A DNA stretch of 32,083 nucleotides from a virus. Shown here one piece after another: positions 5,043-31,711 of this stretch (the stretch's first letter is position 1; each line of letters starts with the position of its first letter). The notes under the pieces were generated by a model. The model was given only the letters and a program-made list of their open reading frames with translations. It ran no database searches and was not told where the DNA came from. A program made the position numbers and the translations under genes. The stretch is taken from positions 1-32,083 of the IMG/VR virus record IMGVR_UViG_3300032271_000012. The stretch is one strand, 5' to 3'.

Positions 5043-5600
5043 ATGGCAGATTTGAAAATTTCCCAACTTACTGGCGTTACCACGCCAATGGATGGCACTG
5101 AGCAAGTGCCTGTCGTGCAAAGTGGAACAACTAAAAAAGCAACTGTTGCTGACTTTTTGTGCGGCCCATTGGCGCAGGCTTATCAGAGTTCTGCACAAAC
5201 TCTTACATCGTCAGTGTATACATTGATTAGCTATCAAACCGAGTTGTATGACACCAACGGATGTTTCAACAACACTGCCGGTTCTGTCACACTGAACGGA
5301 TTGACAGCACCGGCTTATTCCTTTACCCCTAACCGCGCAGGTTGGTATCAGGTCAGTGCTGGTTTAACGATGGGATCATTGGCTTCTGCCATAACAATAT
5401 CTATTTATAAAAATGGAGTTTCAGCAAAAATATTGTCACTTACAGAGCCGGGGACAACACTATACGGCCACTACGGGTCTGGACTTATTTATCTTAACGG
5501 CACTAGCGATTACATTCAAATTTACGGACGATTAAGTGTTGGGCAGGCTTTAGATGCTGTCGCTGCGAGTACATATTTTGACGTTGCACAAGTGAGATAA
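5043..5600 (+). CDS. Small fibre protein with C1q/TNF-like C-terminal domain
   Basis: 185 residues. The first 40 residues (MADLKISQLTG, then MDGTEQVPVVQSGTTKKATVADFL) match a very common phage fibre N-terminus. From about residue 75 the sequence has a jelly-roll pattern: NRAGWYQVSAGLTM, ISIYKNG, GLIYLNGTSDYIQIYGR, and a closing YFDVAQVR. This resembles C1q/TNF-like trimeric lectin domains at fibre tips. It follows the S74 spike by three bases and is probably co-translated. A receptor-binding or spike-accessory role is inferred. No catalytic residues are seen. Confidence 0.65.
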   Translation: MADLKISQLTGVTTPMDGTEQVPVVQSGTTKKATVADFLCGPLAQAYQSSAQTLTSSVYTLISYQTELYDTNGCFNNTAGSVTLNGLTAPAYSFTPNRAGWYQVSAGLTMGSLASAITISIYKNGVSAKILSLTEPGTTLYGHYGSGLIYLNGTSDYIQIYGRLSVGQALDAVAASTYFDVAQVR

Positions 5601-19524: not shown

Positions 19525-19777
19525 GTCGTTGCTCCAATGCTGTAGTGGTAATGTGATCAACAAGGCTTTGCATCAACAGGTGTCCAATGTCTATATCAGT
19601 GCCTGCAACGTAAGCATTGACCAAATCCATGCACTCGTCTTGATCTGGTTCATAAGCCAAGCCCATTGAATCCTTAGACCCAAATTCAGCGGGGTAGTAT
19701 TCCAAAAAGCAAACAAGGTCAACACCTTCAACCTCGCAAGCAAATTCAATAAGCCCATTAGGGCATTCCGGGGTCAT
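19517..19777 (-). CDS. Hypothetical acidic protein, 86 residues
   Basis: The true start is probably the ATG at 19777, which overlaps the stop of the upstream membrane protein as ATGA; longer versions of this frame run inside that gene. The product begins MTPECPNGLIEFACEVEGVDLVCFLEYYPAEFG and is acidic, with a helical C-terminus (DECMDLVNAYVAGTDIDIGHLL). It overlaps the next gene by eight bases. No domain recognised. It may be a small inhibitor or regulatory protein of the early operon, but there is no evidence for a particular target. Confidence 0.6.
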   Translation of the reverse strand: MTPECPNGLIEFACEVEGVDLVCFLEYYPAEFGSKDSMGLAYEPDQDECMDLVNAYVAGTDIDIGHLLMQSLVDHITTTALEQRHD

Positions 19778-19932
19778 ACTGACCACCATGCGACCAAAAG
19801 ACAAGCCATGCCTGCGCCAATAACAAAAGCCAGCACATAACCCGCCACTTGCTCCCAAAACGGCTCTGGCTGACCGTGGCCTTGCACATAAATGCACTCA
19901 GCGGATGTTCTAGGTGTTTGCAGATTTTTCAT
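19774..19932 (-). CDS. Small membrane protein, 52 residues, first gene behind internal promoter
   Basis: I choose the ATG at 19932 because AAGGAAATCAAA precedes it. An in-frame ATG at 19971 would translate the leader hairpin. The product begins MKNLQTPRTSAECIYVQGHG and has one membrane segment (VAGYVLAFVIGAGMACLLVAWW) at the C-terminal end. It is the first gene after the promoter at 19978-20006 and is followed by a coupled gene (ATGA). A tail-anchored early membrane protein could act in superinfection exclusion or host membrane change; this is speculation. Confidence 0.65.
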   Translation of the reverse strand: MKNLQTPRTSAECIYVQGHGQPEPFWEQVAGYVLAFVIGAGMACLLVAWWSV

Positions 19933-19968: not shown

Positions 19969-19977
19969 CATGGCTGA

Positions 19978-20006
19978 ATAATATCACATTTGTGAAGTCT
20001 GCGCAA
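19978..20006 (-). promoter_or_regulatory. Internal early promoter with palindromic operator (copy 2)
   Basis: On the minus strand: -35 TTGCGC (20006-20001), 17-base spacer, -10 TATTAT (19983-19978) with TGA directly before it (extended -10). The palindrome ATCACA-TT-TGTGAA (plus-strand reading, 19983-19996) fills most of the spacer. It overlaps the last codons and the stop of the winged-helix gene. Two further promoters near 22000 have the same design, so a shared repressor is likely. Confidence 0.75.
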
Positions 20007-20211
20007 CTTTGTCCAATTTATAAAACCATTTGTCGGCTCTGCGCTGGCAGTCAATGTCAAAACCGTTCTGTCTCAATTCAGAAATGATGCTGTTTACGGC
20101 ACAGACGTTTGCCTGTTTGATGATGTCCAAGGTGGTAAATTCTCCACCCTGAGACAACAGTTCAAGCACACGGTTTAATCGGTCGCTGTTTTCAATGCTG
20201 GCTGCGTTCAT
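19984..20211 (-). CDS. Winged-helix DNA-binding protein, 75 residues
   Basis: The product (RLNRVLELLSQGGEFTTLDIIKQANVCAVNSIISELRQNGFDIDCQRRADKWFYKL) is a textbook winged helix: helix 1, TTLDIIKQANV turn, recognition helix AVNSIISELRQNG, then a beta wing ending in WFYKL. Similar small proteins occur beside phage recombination and replication genes. The start follows AAGGAGTCAAC. Its 3' end encodes the operator and promoter of the next unit, so transcription of the gene and use of that promoter could interfere. It could be a regulator of the internal promoter; that is inference. Confidence 0.75.
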   Translation of the reverse strand: MNAASIENSDRLNRVLELLSQGGEFTTLDIIKQANVCAVNSIISELRQNGFDIDCQRRADKWFYKLDKVAQTSQM

Positions 20212-20220
20212 GTTGACTCC

Positions 20221-20472
20221 TTAAAAAGGTAAATCGTCATCTTCAAATGATGCTGACTTGCGTTCTTGGCGCTCCTCTTGTGGTCTTGGGTCGTTGATGT
20301 ACGCCCAACCATCCCAACCGCCTTCACGCAGCGGAATGACATCTAGCTTTAGCATTGGGCCATTCTTAGTTTCAATGATTGATCCGATACGCTGATAACG
20401 CTTCTTTCGTTCACCAGCTGCGTTTGTGTACTCACCTGTGATGCACGAGATTTCTTTGCTAACTTTAGACAT
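20221..20472 (-). CDS. SSB-like single-strand DNA-binding protein with acidic tip
   Basis: 83 residues. A compact beta-rich body (EYTNAAGERKKRYQRIGSII, then GPMLKLDVIPLREGG, then GWAYINDP) is followed by a charged tail ending in DDDLPF. This matches the acidic C-terminal tip (DDDIPF) that bacterial SSB uses to bind partner proteins. It is shorter than a full SSB (about 170 residues) and looks like a reduced OB-fold. It sits directly after the exonuclease gene and two genes after the ERF protein, so it likely coats single strands during phage recombination. The start follows GGAGAATAAAAA. Confidence 0.72.
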   Translation of the reverse strand: MSKVSKEISCITGEYTNAAGERKKRYQRIGSIIETKNGPMLKLDVIPLREGGWDGWAYINDPRPQEERQERKSASFEDDDLPF

Positions 20473-20475
20473 TTT

Positions 20476-21108
20476 TTATTCTCCAATAATGGTTTTGAGG
20501 GATTTCACTTTGGCATCAACTTCAGCCAAAAACTTTAGGACTTCATCTTCTGCAATCTTGAGCCAATCGTTATTGCGCTCAACACGGAAAATAAACAATT
20601 GCGCTTTGCCTGGCATACGAGGATCAAAGACAACGTAATCACACCAGGCCCGATCAGCGCAGCGCATTTGCCACTGCATCTGTGCGTAATACTTAGCATC
20701 CACTGGATTGTTGCCTTGTGAATGGGTAAGCCAAACTTCAAGGGCTGTACTAGATGATGGGCATTTAATCTCTACCATGCCATCACCCACTAAGCCATCT
20801 GGAGAGGCTCCAGCGGCCTCAATCGTTGGGTGAGGCATGAACCCTACTTCCTCAACCATTTGCCCCATGTGTGCCTCATATGCTGCTCTGGCAAAGGGTT
20901 CTTGTTCAGTCCCCCAGGCCATTGCTGCATTAGAAAAAGACTCAGCGCGTGTCTGGGTGATGCGCTCCAGCACCAGCTGCGTCATGTAATTGGCTCGGCT
21001 TGCGCTGTAACCTGTTTTAGTCTTGGCAAGCACATCAGCCAATCGGCTGGCAGTGACCTTGCCTAAACGGTTTGCAAACCAGCTTTCAGTTCCTTGTTCT
21101 TCATTCAT
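20476..21108 (-). CDS. YqaJ/lambda-type 5'-3' exonuclease
   Basis: 210 residues, close to lambda exonuclease (226). Family signatures are: N-terminal QGTESWFANRLGKVTASRLADVLA; WGTEQEPFARAAYE near 65-77; the metal-binding SPDG at 102-105 (D104) with E113 and K115 in VEIKCP; and YYAQMQWQMRCADRAWCDYVVFDP. It digests the 5' strand of duplex ends and hands 3' overhangs to the annealing protein. The gene overlaps the end of the ERF gene by four bases (ATGA), giving a two-component recombination pair with an SSB-like gene three bases downstream. All key residues are present. Confidence 0.9.
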   Translation of the reverse strand: MNEEQGTESWFANRLGKVTASRLADVLAKTKTGYSASRANYMTQLVLERITQTRAESFSNAAMAWGTEQEPFARAAYEAHMGQMVEEVGFMPHPTIEAAGASPDGLVGDGMVEIKCPSSSTALEVWLTHSQGNNPVDAKYYAQMQWQMRCADRAWCDYVVFDPRMPGKAQLFIFRVERNNDWLKIAEDEVLKFLAEVDAKVKSLKTIIGE

Positions 21109-21662
21109 AATGTTTCCTTTTTTGCGCGGTCAATTCGTGCCTTCTTTGCTTGGATAACTTTGGCCTGTAATGCTTGGTTACCTTGACAGGCTTCCAGTGC
21201 ATCTTTGTAAACCTTTGCAAGTTCATCACTGTTACCGCTGGCCTCGATTGCAGCCAAGTGATCGGTTATGTCTGGTGTTGGGACGGCTTTGCGTGTGGCG
21301 GCATTTCCGTCATCGTCTTCAGGAGCAATACCGCAAGCTGCCATCAGGCTATAGCGCCTTGCATATGTCAGCGCAGAGCCGTATCCCTGCGGGTCTTGCT
21401 TAGATGCAGGAACATGAAGTTTGCCGCACTCAAGCATTTCGCCAGATTCATGGATAAATACAGTTTCCACCGTGACCCCCGTGGTGTCCTCGCTGGTGCG
21501 CTGAACAAGGGCAATGCCTGCACCGTTTAGACCTTCAATGACTGCCTCAACGCAAGCAGAAAGGTCTGCATAGCGTGATTTAAAGTGAGGATTGGTGCTG
21601 CTTTTTAGGGCAGGGCCAAAAGCCTTTTGTGCCTGGACTAAGGCAGTTGCTATCTGTTTCAT
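21105..21662 (-). CDS. ERF-family single-strand annealing protein
   Basis: 185 residues, similar in length to P22 Erf (204). The diagnostic N-terminal part is clear: IATALVQAQKAFGPALKSSTNPHFKSRYADLSACVEAVI, then ALVQRTSEDTTGVTVETVFIHESGEML, then QGYGSALTYARRYSLMAACGIAPEDDDGN. ERF proteins form rings on single-stranded DNA and anneal complementary strands; in P22 this circularises and recombines the genome. It is coupled to the gene before it and to the exonuclease after it. The C-terminus is helical and less conserved. Confidence 0.92.
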   Translation of the reverse strand: MKQIATALVQAQKAFGPALKSSTNPHFKSRYADLSACVEAVIEGLNGAGIALVQRTSEDTTGVTVETVFIHESGEMLECGKLHVPASKQDPQGYGSALTYARRYSLMAACGIAPEDDDGNAATRKAVPTPDITDHLAAIEASGNSDELAKVYKDALEACQGNQALQAKVIQAKKARIDRAKKETL

Positions 21663-21937
21663 TTTGTGTACTCCAGTGCTTGCAGTTTGCTGATTTGGTC
21701 GTTGATCTCTGTGACAGACTTTTGAAAGTCAGCCATCACCTTTTGCCTTTTTTCTTTTAGCGCAACAATCTGCTGTGCGCGTGGATCGTAGTTGTCAGGA
21801 ACTTCCAGCTCAATGTCTTGCTCACAGACAAAGGTGTAATGATCTGATTCATGCTGGTATGCAAAAGGCACAAACTTGCCTTCAGTTTCCCAGGTGTATT
21901 TGCAAAAATATATGTAGAGTTTGGTTGGGATTTTCAT
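21659..21937 (-). CDS. Hypothetical protein heading the recombination operon
   Basis: 92 residues from the ATG at 21937 (AGGAAAGCAAATC upstream); an earlier in-frame ATG at 21973 lies in the leader hairpin. The N-terminal half (MKIPTKLYIYFCKYTW, then ESDHYTFVCEQDIELEVPDNYDP) is beta-rich. The C-terminal half (VALKEKRQKVMADFQKSVTEINDQISKLQ) is a clear coiled coil. I know similar small proteins in front of ERF genes but no function for them. Its stop overlaps the ERF start (ATGA), so it is the first cistron made from the leftward promoter and possibly an accessory of the annealing protein. Confidence 0.68.
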   Translation of the reverse strand: MKIPTKLYIYFCKYTWETEGKFVPFAYQHESDHYTFVCEQDIELEVPDNYDPRAQQIVALKEKRQKVMADFQKSVTEINDQISKLQALEYTK

Positions 21938-21950
21938 GATTTGCTTTCCT

Positions 21951-21975
21951 AAAAAGACCCTGAAGAAGTTCAAGG
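21951..21975 (-). promoter_or_regulatory. Leader hairpin with T-run (attenuator-like), copy 1
   Basis: On the minus strand CCTTGAA-CTTC-TTCAGGG forms a 7-bp stem (one G-T pair) with a 4-base loop, followed by TCTTTTT and AGGAAA. A two-codon ORF (ATG CCT TGA) enters the stem. It lies between promoter and first gene exactly as at 19945-19968. Either an attenuator or a 5' protective stem. Confidence 0.5.
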
Positions 21976-21984
21976 CATGGCTAG

Positions 21985-22012
21985 ATCATATCACGTTTGT
22001 GAAGTCTGCAAG
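21985..22012 (-). promoter_or_regulatory. Leftward early promoter with palindromic operator (copy 1)
   Basis: On the minus strand: -35 CTTGCA (22012-22007), 16-base spacer, -10 TATGAT (21990-21985) preceded by TGA (extended -10). The operator ATCACG-TT-TGTGAA (plus-strand reading, 21990-22003) sits in the spacer. It drives the ERF/exonuclease/SSB operon. It forms a divergent control region with the regulator promoter at 22057-22075, about 55 bases away. Confidence 0.78.
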
Positions 22013-22056
22013 CCTTTTTTAAATTATTTTTATAGGTGCTTTCCCTAACCTTTACC

Positions 22057-22075
22057 ATCACAACTGTGATATAGT
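22057..22075 (+). promoter_or_regulatory. Regulator promoter with best palindromic operator (copy 3)
   Basis: The operator ATCACA-AC-TGTGAT (22057-22070) has perfect 6-base half-sites. The -10 TATAGT (22070-22075) is preceded by TGA (extended -10). No convincing -35 is seen 16-18 bases upstream. The -10 ends six bases before the ATG at 22082, so transcription should start at or next to the first codon. Self-regulation of the Cro-like gene is likely. Confidence 0.72.
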
Positions 22076-22081
22076 CCTTGG

Positions 22082-22261
22082 ATGGACATCTTAGAAATTG
22101 CAATCAAGGAAGCTGGCGGCACAGGTCGCCTGGCTTTTCTTTTAGACTTAAAGCAGAACGTGGTGAGCAACTGGCGGCAACGTGGTGTGCCTAAAGGTTG
22201 GGAACAAGTGCTGCGAATTAAATTTAAAAAGCAGATTGCATCAGCTGGGAAAGTGGTATAA
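22082..22261 (+). CDS. Cro-like/YdaS-type transcription regulator, 59 residues
   Basis: The product begins MDILEIAIKEAGGTGRLAFL and continues LDLKQNVVSNWRQRGVP, a helix-turn-helix with recognition helix QNVVSNWRQRG as in Cro and YdaS-type repressors; a basic tail follows (LRIKFKKQIASAGK). It is the only regulator in the divergent control region and presumably binds the palindromes at 21990, 22057 and 19983. No Shine-Dalgarno sequence precedes the ATG, and the -10 box ends six bases upstream, which points to a leaderless mRNA. No larger CI-like partner is seen. It is too short to be found by length-filtered ORF calling. Confidence 0.78.
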   Translation: MDILEIAIKEAGGTGRLAFLLDLKQNVVSNWRQRGVPKGWEQVLRIKFKKQIASAGKVV

Positions 22262-22294
22262 AATTTTTAACATCCCTTGGCGGGGAATTGCAAT

Positions 22295-22377
22295 AAGACT
22301 TAGATGGAACTCTGCTGGTATTGCCCAGTCCGCCAACAGCCTAAAAAGCTGAGAGTTCCACCTAAGTCTTTTTTTTT
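22295..22377 (+). terminator. Long-stem hairpin with T-run after the regulator gene
   Basis: The arms 22295-22313 and 22352-22370 pair over 19 positions with a single mismatch (A against C). The 38-base loop contains a small CTGG-TATTGC-CCAG hairpin at 22315-22328. Nine T (22369-22377) follow. It can terminate the regulator transcript. The unusually long stem and structured loop would also fit a small stable RNA or a regulated read-through point. The next gene starts nine bases after the T-run. The 125-base gap 22262-22386 holds no convincing ORF. Confidence 0.7.
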
Positions 22378-22386
22378 GGGCTTTTT

Positions 22387-22578
22387 ATGTTAATTTTTCC
22401 AAGAGAACTTGAGACTCACGTTTATGGACAAGAGGGTGTAATTTATTTTGAACAATTTGATGGAGATGGAAACAGGACTACAGTAATAAGATTAAGTATT
22501 CATCAATTTCAAGAAATTTTCAATAGAGAAAAATCAATTATTGCCGAGGCTGAAGATGAGCAAGAGGATGCTCAATGA
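22387..22578 (+). CDS. Hypothetical acidic protein, 63 residues
   Basis: MLIFPRELETHVYGQEGVIYFEQFDGDGNRTTVIRLSIHQFQEIF looks like a small alpha/beta fold: strands VIYFEQFD and TTVIRLS, then helix HQFQEIF. A very acidic tail (AEAEDEQEDAQ) ends it. Its stop overlaps the replication-initiator start (ATGA), so both are made together. Its own ribosome-binding site is weak (GGG at 22378-22380) and adjoins the T-run of the hairpin, so expression may depend on read-through. Function unknown; an accessory of the replication protein is possible from position. Confidence 0.62.
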   Translation: MLIFPRELETHVYGQEGVIYFEQFDGDGNRTTVIRLSIHQFQEIFNREKSIIAEAEDEQEDAQ

Positions 22579-23387
22579 AGCGCCCATCTTTTCAGTTTTA
22601 CCCAGCTGATTGGCTGCGAGACACGGCGCTTAGATCATGCTCAACAGGTGCAAGGGGATTGTGGATAGACATGATCTGTTTTATGCATGAAGGTAATCCA
22701 TATGGTCATCTTAAGGTTGGCAACAAGGTTATCCTTCCATCTAACCTTGCGGGTATGGTAGGGGCAACCTTGCAAGATGTTGAAGGTTGGTTAAATGAAC
22801 TACACCTTTCAGGCGTTTATGAATTGGGTGAAGGTGGAGAAATTTATTCCAAGCGAATGGTCAGAGACGAATGCCTTCGAAACAAGAGGGCAGAAGGTGG
22901 AAAGCTAGGTGGAAACCCTGCATTGAAGGTTAACCATGAGGATAACTCTAAGGTTGAAATTGAGGTTAAACAAAAACCAACCCCTTCATCTTCATCTTCA
23001 TCTTCATCTTCATCTTCAGATATTAAAGAAGGTAAACCTTCTTTGTCCACAGCAAAGCTGATGGCCTGTCCGCAAAAGGAAATTTTGAATCTTTGGGCAA
23101 AGCATCTACCTCACTTGGCACAGCCACGCAGTTGGGAAGGAACTCGCAGAGCCAACACAAAGCAACGGTGGAATCAAGCCAGCAAGCCAAGCGCATACAG
23201 CCCAGAGGGATACCAGACGGAGGAGGATGGAATCAAGTGGTGGGATAGTTTTTTTGGCTACATAGCAAAAGACACCAGCTTGTCAAATGGCTTTGAATCG
23301 CAAGGCCGAACATGGCGCCCCGACCTTGAGTGGGTAGTCAACGCAACTAACTTTCAAAAAATCATTGATGGGAAATATTCAAAATGA
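22575..23387 (+). CDS. Replication initiator-like protein (lambda O/DnaD-type N-terminus)
   Basis: 270 residues. The N-terminal domain (SFQFYPADWLRDTALRSCSTGARGLWIDMICFMHEGNPYGHL, then AGMVGATLQDVEGWLNELHLSGVYE) is a winged-helix fold of phage replisome organisers. A Ser-only linker starts at about residue 138, encoded by a TCTTCA repeat. The C-terminal part (RWNQ, then WWDSFFGYIAKDTSLSNG, then RTWRPDLEWVVNATNFQKIIDGKYSK) is typical of the partner-binding end in such proteins. Like lambda O, it may bind an origin inside its own gene and recruit helicase. No phage helicase or loader is seen nearby, so host proteins are presumably used. Confidence 0.75.
   Translation: MKRPSFQFYPADWLRDTALRSCSTGARGLWIDMICFMHEGNPYGHLKVGNKVILPSNLAGMVGATLQDVEGWLNELHLSGVYELGEGGEIYSKRMVRDECLRNKRAEGGKLGGNPALKVNHEDNSKVEIEVKQKPTPSSSSSSSSSSSDIKEGKPSLSTAKLMACPQKEILNLWAKHLPHLAQPRSWEGTRRANTKQRWNQASKPSAYSPEGYQTEEDGIKWWDSFFGYIAKDTSLSNGFESQGRTWRPDLEWVVNATNFQKIIDGKYSK
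22984..23018 (+). repeat. CTTCAT hexamer tandem repeat (5.8 copies)
   Basis: Nearly six perfect copies of a 6-base unit, encoding a run of Ser residues in the linker of the initiator gene. An AT-rich stretch follows. In lambda the origin iterons lie in the middle of gene O, so this could be part of an origin. A simple linker microsatellite prone to slippage (in-frame length change) is the plainer reading. Confidence 0.85.
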
Positions 23388-25310: not shown

Positions 25311-25630
25311 ATTACCAAAAACATAAGTACATCAGAAGCAAGAAACTTTTAAAGCTGGTGGCAAGTCTTGACTGCCAACTTTGCGGGTCAGGCGTATGCG
25401 TCCAGGCGGCACACACAAATTGGGGCGGCGGTAAGGGCCGTGGCATAAAAGCTGACGATAATCTTACAGCTGCGCTGTGCATGAGTTGCCATCACGACAT
25501 TGACCAAGGCGCAAAGTGGTCAAAGGCCGAAAGACAACAGGCTTGGATCGTGGCACATTTTAAAACAGTCCAAATCCTTACCAATAATGGGCAATGGCCT
25601 GTTGACATTCCCGTCCCTGAATTGGTATAG
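25307..25630 (+). CDS. HNH-like/DUF1364-type protein
   Basis: 107 residues from a GTG coupled to the stop before it (GTGA). Cysteines and histidines are spaced as in phage recombination-associated HNH-like proteins: LDCQLCGSGVCVQAAHTNWGGGKGRG, then LCMSCHHDIDQG. These would bind zinc and form a beta-beta-alpha metal site. The basic N-terminus (KHKYIRSKKLLKLV) may contact DNA. NinG/DUF1364 relatives act in lambdoid recombination regions; a nuclease activity is possible but not shown. The 3' end contains the -35 and most of the promoter of the next gene. Confidence 0.75.
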   Translation: MNYQKHKYIRSKKLLKLVASLDCQLCGSGVCVQAAHTNWGGGKGRGIKADDNLTAALCMSCHHDIDQGAKWSKAERQQAWIVAHFKTVQILTNNGQWPVDIPVPELV

Positions 25631-25631
25631 T
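25602..25631 (+). promoter_or_regulatory. Strong sigma-70-type promoter for the Dps-like gene
   Basis: Consensus TTGACA at 25602-25607, 18-base spacer, TATAGT at 25626-25631. It lies within the end of the HNH gene. The -10 ends six bases before the ATG at 25638, so the transcript should begin at the start codon or within a base or two. Confidence 0.75.
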
Positions 25632-25637
25632 GCAGAA

Positions 25638-29584: not shown

Positions 29585-31711
29585 ATGGCTTACCAAGACG
29601 AAACAGGCAATAAAGACAAGATCAACGATGCCATTAAATTCTGGCGCTTGGTCAACGATGCTGACTCCACCAATCGCGCCGAGGCGCTAAACGACATTAA
29701 GTTTGCCGCTGGTGACCAGTGGCCTGTCGAGATTCAGAACAGCCGAAACCTTGAATCGCGTCCATGCCTGACGATTAACAAGATTGATGCCTATATTCGC
29801 CAGGTGACCAACCAGCAGCGGATGCAGCGCCCTCGCATCAAGGTTCACCCTGTTAACAACCTGGCTGATTACAAGATTGCCCAAGTGATTGAGGGCATCA
29901 CTCGCCACATTGAGGTGAATTCAAACGCTGATACGGCTTATGACACCGCATTTGACTATGCCGTTCGCATGGGATGGGGTTACTGGCGCGTCAACACACG
30001 ATATGTAAGTGAGGATTCCTTTGATCAGGAAATCTTTATCGATACCATTGATAACCCCTTCACAGTCTATTTTGATCCTAACTCTCTTTTGCCCGATGGC
30101 TCAGACGCAGAACGCTGCCTAATCACTACGGTGATGGACAAGAAGATTTTTAAAGAATATTACCCAGACGCAGACGATGGGGCTAATTTTCAGCAACGCT
30201 CTACTGGTGATGACACAGCCGCATGGATCACCAAAGAGGACATTCGGGTTGCAGAATACTTCTATGTTGAGCGTGAGCGAGCCAAGCTGTATTTGTTGAG
30301 TGATGGCACTTCAGGCTTTGCCGATTCAGACAACTTTTTTGCCCGTGTAGAAGCATCAGGTCTGACCATAGTGGATGACCGTGACAGCTTCCGCAAGGTA
30401 GTCAAATGGATGAAATGCACCTCGCTGGAGATTCTTGAAGAAAAAACAATGGCGGGTAAATACATTCCCGTTGTGCCTTGTTATGGCGCTCAAGTGATCA
30501 TTGACGATAAGCGCAAGAAATATGGTTTGGTGCGGTTTGCCAAAGACCCGCAACGGATGTACAACTTCTGGCGCACCAGCATGACCGAAAGCGTTGCCTT
30601 GGCTCCAAAGGCCAAATGGTTGCTTGCTGAAGGTCAAGACGAAGGCCATGAAAACGAATGGGCGCAAGCCAACATCAAGTCAAGCCCTGTACTGCGATAC
30701 AAACAAAAAGACATTGAGGGTGTACCCGCACCAGCACCAGTGCGACTTCAGCCAGAGCCGCCGCCAATGGGCATCATGGAAGCCGCTGGCGCTATTTCTG
30801 CTGACTTGCAGATGGTTTTGGGTGTACTTGACCCTAACCAGTTGCCAAGCGGAAACATCTCTGGCAAGGCATTGCAAGGGCAACAAAATCAAGTTGACCT
30901 GTCAAACTTCCACTACTACGACAACTTAACCCGTTCCATCAGGCACACGGGCAAAATCATTCTGGATTTGATTCCCAAGATTTACGATACACAGCGAGTG
31001 ATGAGAATTATTGGTTCGGATGGTCAGCCCGACATGACCACGATCAACGAGCAAAACGAGATTGGCGAAGTGCTGAATGATGTGACCGTTGGTGAATACG
31101 ATGTGGTTATGGACACAGGCCCAGGCTTCCAAACAAAGCGTCAGCAGGCCGTTGAAAGCATGATGCCGCTAATGACGGGTAATCCTGAATTGTTTAACGT
31201 TGCTGGTGACTTGGTGTTCAGAAACATGGACTTCCCTGGCGCTGATGTAATTGCAGACCGTCTTGCAGCCATGAACCCATTGGCTAACATTGACGAAAAA
31301 TCAGAAATCCCACCGCAAGTTCAAATGCAGTTGGTTCAGTCTAAACAGGCCATTGAGCAGCTGCAACAGCAATTGCAAGCGGCTGGTTTAGAGATTAATA
31401 ACAGGGCGCAGGTGGCTCAGATTCGTGAAGAAGGCGCAACCAAACGCAAACTTTTAGAAGTTACTGCCAAGGCGCATAACACCGAGACAATGGCAGAAGT
31501 TAAAGTCAACGATCAAAACACCCGCAGCATTACCAGCCAGAATAAGACCGAGATTGATGCCTTGGTTAAAATGCTTATTGCAAGAATGTCGCCTAATCAG
31601 TTATTGGCTGAGATTGACCGACTCAATGCTGAACAGCAACAATATGCGATGGCGGCAGCGTCAGATATTAGCCAGGGTGCTAGTCCATTTACACAGCCAA
31701 TGCAACAATAA
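29585..31711 (+). CDS. Portal protein, P22 gp1-like
   Basis: I start at the ATG at 29585 (708 residues; P22 gp1 has 725). The frame is open to an ATG at 29531 inside terL, but that start adds a non-conserved peptide. Recognisable parts are ALNDIKFAAGDQWP, LTINKIDAYIRQVTNQQRMQRP, FDYAVRMGWGYWRV, DPFTVYFDPNS-like DNPFTVYFDPNS, and PDPQRMYNF-like KDPQRMYNFWR. The last 110 residues are a Gln-rich barrel/helix (QLQQQLQAAGLEI). Twelve copies form the DNA gateway and the base for gp4. The stop lies directly against the promoter at 31712. Confidence 0.88.
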   Translation: MAYQDETGNKDKINDAIKFWRLVNDADSTNRAEALNDIKFAAGDQWPVEIQNSRNLESRPCLTINKIDAYIRQVTNQQRMQRPRIKVHPVNNLADYKIAQVIEGITRHIEVNSNADTAYDTAFDYAVRMGWGYWRVNTRYVSEDSFDQEIFIDTIDNPFTVYFDPNSLLPDGSDAERCLITTVMDKKIFKEYYPDADDGANFQQRSTGDDTAAWITKEDIRVAEYFYVERERAKLYLLSDGTSGFADSDNFFARVEASGLTIVDDRDSFRKVVKWMKCTSLEILEEKTMAGKYIPVVPCYGAQVIIDDKRKKYGLVRFAKDPQRMYNFWRTSMTESVALAPKAKWLLAEGQDEGHENEWAQANIKSSPVLRYKQKDIEGVPAPAPVRLQPEPPPMGIMEAAGAISADLQMVLGVLDPNQLPSGNISGKALQGQQNQVDLSNFHYYDNLTRSIRHTGKIILDLIPKIYDTQRVMRIIGSDGQPDMTTINEQNEIGEVLNDVTVGEYDVVMDTGPGFQTKRQQAVESMMPLMTGNPELFNVAGDLVFRNMDFPGADVIADRLAAMNPLANIDEKSEIPPQVQMQLVQSKQAIEQLQQQLQAAGLEINNRAQVAQIREEGATKRKLLEVTAKAHNTETMAEVKVNDQNTRSITSQNKTEIDALVKMLIARMSPNQLLAEIDRLNAEQQQYAMAAASDISQGASPFTQPMQQ

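Follow-up and report, generated by a model that had tools for sequence, protein, structure and literature searches.

In the phage described here, a 59-residue Cro protein very probably represses three early promoters, pR, pL and pL2, through one operator that overlaps the -10 box of each, and cro, predicted to be translated from a leaderless mRNA, would limit early transcription. The promoter anatomy, its conservation among relatives, the replacement of operator and Cro together and the accompanying statistics are described below, and it is from the DNA of this phage and its relatives that we infer Cro binding, repression and the leaderless start.

According to the proposed mechanism, a Cro-type repressor would bind TCACA-N2-TGTGA at its own promoter, pR, and at the leftward early promoters pL and pL2. 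The operator would lie within the promoter spacer and overlap the -10 box, so that bound Cro dimers would exclude RNA polymerase, and the TGTGA half-site would do double duty as an extended -10 element. With a leaderless mRNA, the regulator would be made once the host polymerase engages, and Cro would then limit early transcription in both directions, rightward (replication) and leftward (recombination). The promoters pL and pR point apart across a spacer of A/T tracts, which would give both of them UP-like elements.

The control region and its operators

The window, that is, the whole stretch of 32,083 bp that was analyzed, is the virus record of a P22-like podophage, in which genes for portal, terminase, coat, scaffold, head closure and DNA-ejection proteins were found. 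The cro-like gene (22082..22261, plus strand) opens the rightward early operon with an operator at its own promoter, as expected of the Cro family, and is followed by a replication gene (22575-23387). The leftward recombination operon begins with a gene of phrog_2479, of unknown function (21659..21937, minus strand), followed by an ERF recombinase (21105-21662) and a YqaJ exonuclease (20476-21108). The divergent neighbor of cro is this phrog_2479 gene and not CI, which sets the arrangement apart from a lambdoid CI/Cro switch; neither CI nor an integrase was found in a search of the main ORFs of the window and part of the small ones. Behind the second leftward promoter, pL2, the first gene is small and without family match (19774..19932, minus strand).

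The operator at pR (22057..22070, plus strand; ATCACAACTGTGAT) has no mismatch to ATCACA-N2-TGTGAT, the one at pL2 (19983..19996, minus strand; ATCACATTTGTGAA) has one, and the one at pL (21990..22003, minus strand; ATCACGTTTGTGAA), 67 bp from the pR operator, has two. The corresponding -10 boxes are TATAGT at pR (22070..22075, plus strand, reading TGTGA-TATAGT, its TGA supplied by the operator half-site), TATTAT at pL2 (19978..19983, minus strand, reading TGTGA-TATTAT) and TATGAT at pL (21985..21990, minus strand, reading CGTGA-TATGAT). Palindrome and box have one base in common in all three cases: on the reading strand, the palindrome ends in the T with which the hexamer opens. The three palindromes, their one-base contact with the -10 box, the TGA ahead of it (TGn precedes every hexamer) and the perfect copy at the cro gene beside two copies off by one or two positions had all been proposed in a sequence-only reading, and they hold.

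Taken by itself, the palindrome is not distinctive. With up to three mismatches it occurs 19 times in the window against 17 expected, which is chance level, and with up to two mismatches four times against 1.7, the only site besides the three operators lying at 30122, within the portal gene. It is the register with a TAnnnT hexamer that singles out the operators, with three such sites in the window, whereas 200 shuffles gave 0.125 on average and 2 at most.

The operator in related phages

A search of IMG/VR with the regulator gave 60 loci, DNA-pattern scans added others, and removal of duplicates left 64 complete upstream regions, all from uncultured records. A final scan that started at pR and made no use of the distance to pL returned new loci only from two contigs that had already been sampled, which indicates that the sample is near exhaustion. 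In all 64 complete relatives with a close regulator homologue, both pR and the facing pL carry the site, and relative to the ATG of cro the pR copy always lies at -23 to -25. Exact copies of TCACANNTGTGA adjoin a -10 hexamer in 75 of 75 cases, with 0.36 copies expected altogether (44 loci, 341 kb), which argues for an operator dedicated to promoters; equal sites placed at random in coding DNA were looked for in the relatives, and none emerged. The whole records searched contain few sites besides the pL-pR pair, occasionally one at pL2. A second leftward promoter of the pL2 type is present in many relatives, and solitary pL-type promoters number 15, the pL2 of the window among them.

The three sites had also been read as an array of graded quality. 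The copies in the window do differ, by zero to two mismatches, but this grading is not conserved: 45 of the 64 relatives have two perfect sites, and in several it is at pR that the poorer copy stands, so that graded quality as a conserved design was rejected. On one contig of 33,392 bp, two different cro copies (L011 and L035) face opposite ways at a distance of about 6.6 kb; the contig either has two control regions or was assembled as a chimera.

The regulator and its exchange together with the operator

The 59-residue regulator has five helices. It matches phrog_8008 (DNA binding; E 9.6e-10) and, over residues 1-37, the profile of Xfaso 1 Cro (3bd1; E 1.9e-9). Its AlphaFold model has a pLDDT of 91, and the top Foldseek matches of that model are XPH1 and Xfaso 1 Cro (TM 0.68-0.73), though with E values of only 0.05-0.08. 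By sequence profile and by fold, the nearest solved relatives are the Cro proteins of Xfaso 1 and Pfl 6 (3bd1, 5w8y), at about 33% identity, and homology to a proven Cro in both respects places the regulator in the Cro family. The nearest Pfam family is YdaS (PF15943), the Cro analogue of the CP-933P switch, at 25.4 bits and below the gathering cut-off of 30. Cultured phages yielded no match to the regulator, and the genome collection yielded no confirmed relative.

The sequence-only reading had attributed all three sites to one protein, most simply this regulator, and the comparison of relatives supports the attribution. A pair of CAC-N4-GTG sites, without any site of the AAGC type, is found in 62 of 62 distinct intergenic regions with a Cro of the window type (including L033 and L222, assigned by hand from proteins of the form MDILEV...SNWRQRG). 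Some ERF-bearing relatives retain the pL leader but encode another small HTH protein where cro would be, and several of those with another Cro retain the downstream RNA as well. Among 35 such sister-phage regions, in which the leader is kept and Cro is another, the paired sites occur in none; CAC-N4-GTG is absent altogether from 34, and the remaining one has a single degenerate copy distant from the -10 box. A palindrome resembling TAAGC-N2-GCTTA appears instead in 19 of the 35, and a scan with its consensus finds 54 sites in the sister regions compared with 14 in shuffles. Since the paired site is gone and a new palindrome stands in 19 of 35 regions where Cro differs, the operator appears to travel with its regulator. 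At a single locus, L059, where Cro is 54% identical, an altered site, TCACTATGGTGA, stands at the promoter's own -10 box.

The co-replacement also bears on whether a host regulator, such as a CRP/FNR-like protein, reads the palindrome in place of phage Cro. The half-sites of CRP have the letters TCACA and TGTGA, and the palindrome is made of the same letters. Their orientation and spacing, however, are unlike those of CRP (TGTGA-N6-TCACA), for which reason a CRP-type site was rejected, and the site vanishes once the phage's own cro is replaced; we consider a host regulator highly improbable, and phage Cro is retained as the predicted reader of the site.

Two further features of L059, a distant relative, were observed at 2384-2808. 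Variant sites, TCACTATGGTGT and TCACTATGGTGA, stand there in tandem, 23 bp apart, and a CI-like HTH_3 gene is divergent from cro, the only place in which a CI-like gene was seen.

Promoters, leaders and the RNA behind cro

All three promoters are of the extended -10 type, with TGn before the hexamer and a weak -35. Among the relatives, a perfect TATAAT is found in 10 of 10 pR copies without the TGn register and in 6 of 54 with it; the counts are inflated by related sequences, and the offset is seen in several branches. The coincidence of TGn loss with a consensus TATAAT supports the use of the extended -10 element.

The cro ATG lies 6 nt past the -10 box in the window and 5-8 nt past it in the 64 relatives (6 nt in 40 of them), and the operator occupies the usual place of a Shine-Dalgarno sequence. 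So short a distance suggests that transcription would start on the AUG or right beside it, no more than 1-2 nt away, which probably makes the cro mRNA leaderless. Elsewhere in the window, a near-consensus promoter, TTGACA-18-TATAGT (25602-25637), ends 6 nt before the ATG (25638) of a DUF5856 gene, which probably gives a second leaderless mRNA, from a promoter without operator.

The leftward transcripts would have leaders. A hairpin stands in the pL leader (21957 to 21976-21978, minus strand), followed by TCTTTTT and a ribosome-binding site, and another in the pL2 leader (19951 to 19969-19971, minus strand), also followed by TCTTTTT and adjoining the ribosome-binding site. Hairpin and TCTTTT recur in 72 of 73 leaders, the stems varying in a compensatory manner (for example CCAC/GTGG and CTC/GAG), and the element resembles either a short terminator or a 5' stabilizer. 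At the predicted start of the pL transcript, an AUG (CATGCC) is near-invariant across leaders, while its reading frame varies. Rfam has no family for the leader. Leader hairpin and TCTTTTT also stand before unrelated genes in many phages.

Directly 3' of cro, and in its transcript, lies a doubly pseudoknotted, terminator-like RNA of 107 nt (22271..22377, plus strand). It comprises a hairpin, the loop of which is engaged by base-pairing in a 17-bp terminator stem, as well as another pseudoknot helix, and ends in a T9 tail. Across 13 distinct relatives, 27 of its 41 pairs show compensatory changes and 98.3% of cells are paired, compared with at most 43% of cells and at most 8 compensatory pairs in slid controls. 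No family in Rfam 15 matches it. The RNA is a candidate attenuator, antiterminator or small RNA, and is perhaps more novel than the operator finding.

Other elements were seen at the same position. At least five other structured-looking blocks, seemingly unrelated, take the place of the RNA (in L006, L007, L014, L009, L017, L058, L052 and L057), for example those of the CGGCTA...GAAAAG...CTGCCG types, and the class of block differs even among close cro relatives. In L057 a tRNA (5385-5456) lies close behind cro. In L067 a small extra ORF, HNH-like by eye, stands between the cro-like gene and the RNA, and is possibly a homing endonuclease insertion.

Spacing of the pL and pR operators

Between the pL and pR operators of the window lies a spacer of A/T tracts (22004..22056), which gives the operator distance of 67 bp. 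Over the 64 regions, this distance takes the values 56-57 (4 regions), 67-68 (16), 78-79 (5), 87-89 (38) and 99 bp (1), with a best period of 10.4-10.5 bp (R 0.92-0.93). Pattern scans over 43-135 bp found no further distance before this cro, and pairs without cro scatter. Clustering the spacers at 20% edit distance leaves 21 clusters and R 0.92; at 30% there are only 6, with p about 0.0075. In the 88 class, lengths stay within 2 bp although the spacers diverge by 40-60% edit distance. The distance class switches about 20 times on the regulator tree, which implies free exchange between classes and that the same Cro works with several spacings; this exchange is surely owed in large part to recombination, and the independent large indels, counted by eye, are about five (10, 10, 11, 11 and 21 bp).

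The A/T tracts themselves follow a 10.5-bp phase relative to each operator (|R| 0.49 and 0.51; maximum of 300 shuffles 0.22). Their centers lie near -42 and -54 of pR and near -40 and -52 of pL, and the 15 solitary pL-type promoters also have the -40 and -52 tracts. UP-like elements are likely, because the positions of the tracts fit UP subsites and the solitary pL-type promoters have the first two. It is quite possible, without being probable, that these tracts account for the phase as well, serving both divergent promoters as a shared UP element or planar bend, with Cro uninvolved in the phasing. Phasing to both operators far beyond shuffles and the equal tracts of the solitary promoters are consistent with this. 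Spacers of 87-99 bp, however, have room for separate UP elements and yet stay in phase, the spacer does not compensate where operator and -10 box are displaced relative to each other by 1-3 bp, and sister families have the leader and similar tracts without strict phase.

The second explanation turns to the operators. The phase from operator to operator (R 0.93) is tighter than that from -10 box to -10 box (R 0.80-0.88), a difference suggestive of a role for the regulator when bound. Dimers of Cro seated at pL and pR would make contact with each other, or with each other's polymerase, over a mini-loop of 57-99 bp, a suggestion that we make tentatively and regard as somewhat unlikely. Besides the tighter operator phase, it would account for distances quantized over 64 distinct regions and for a length kept in the 88 class despite the divergence of its spacers. 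Repression by Lac repressor is strongly phase-dependent at operator spacings of 57.5-155.5 bp (PMC1762422), a precedent at similar spacings. Against it stand the cost of stiff loops below 100 bp, the few truly independent spacer families (the 6 clusters at the 30% cut) and the weak phase of sister families with other Cros, and a tetramer interface is not known for the 59-residue Cro. The specific proposal that a CI-less Cro of this kind joins the two operators in a phased mini-loop of 5.4-9.4 turns, co-repressing both early operons, is more doubtful still; if true, loop lengths of 57 + 10.5n bp would form a natural series preserved by evolution in a CI-less phage group.

Finally, the distances may be a by-product of the way in which spacers change, the spacer being a degenerate array of A/T tracts of about 10.5 bp that gains or loses whole units. 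The 78 class resembles the 67 class plus one near-duplicated tract unit, as such slippage would produce. The phasing of the tracts would itself be left unexplained, and so would a length drift of 2 bp or less inside a class despite heavy divergence; we regard slippage as a rather unlikely explanation.

Helical phase as a universal rule was rejected, being weak in the sister Cro families: their outermost sites lie 45, 47, 58, 64-66, 74-79 or 82-83 bp apart, with |R| 0.35 for outermost and 0.45 for adjacent sites. A second dyad, TAGG(G)-N-(C)CCTA, was noticed near -42 of pR (22034-22051 in the window; perfect, as TAGGGATTTCCCTA, in L020, L040 and L042). It is present in many members of the 57, 67 and 78 classes and in some of the 88 class, not in all, and may be an UP-like element or the site of another protein; in L014 the dyad between the operators is GCTATAG-N7-CTATAGC.

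Relation to known systems and significance

The system is of a known kind, and what is new is a CI-less variant with quantized operator geometry. As in the lambdoid phages (lambda, P22, N15, PY54), where Cro acts at OR and OL, a small HTH repressor stands beside divergent early promoters and its operators overlap promoter elements. PY54 Cro likewise uses one palindrome (PMC4488713). Unlike the lambdoid arrangement, no cI gene was found here between pL and pR, pL faces pR directly, there is one operator per promoter, including an internal leftward promoter, and the operator half-site doubles as extended -10 element. In the YdaS/PaaR2 switch of CP-933P, the mRNA of the paaR2 regulator has been shown to be leaderless (PMC8630535); there the leaderless gene is the CI analogue, whereas here cro itself would be leaderless, and that switch, unlike this one, uses several 18-bp palindromes. 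Two operators of Lac repressor act phase-dependently through short loops at 57-156 bp (PMC1762422), but Lac repressor is a tetramer, and for the present Cro, without a known tetramer, looping is a candidate reading.

Cro is usually studied as one half of the CI/Cro lysogeny switch. In this group of uncultured phages, with dozens of records, it appears to act alone, as a brake on early genes. Operator and Cro are swapped as a cassette in a conserved frame of leader hairpin, A/T spacer and, in part, downstream RNA, and these swaps provide natural pairs for learning the recognition code of Cro. The quantized spacing, in turn, is a natural experiment on the helical phasing of divergent promoters.
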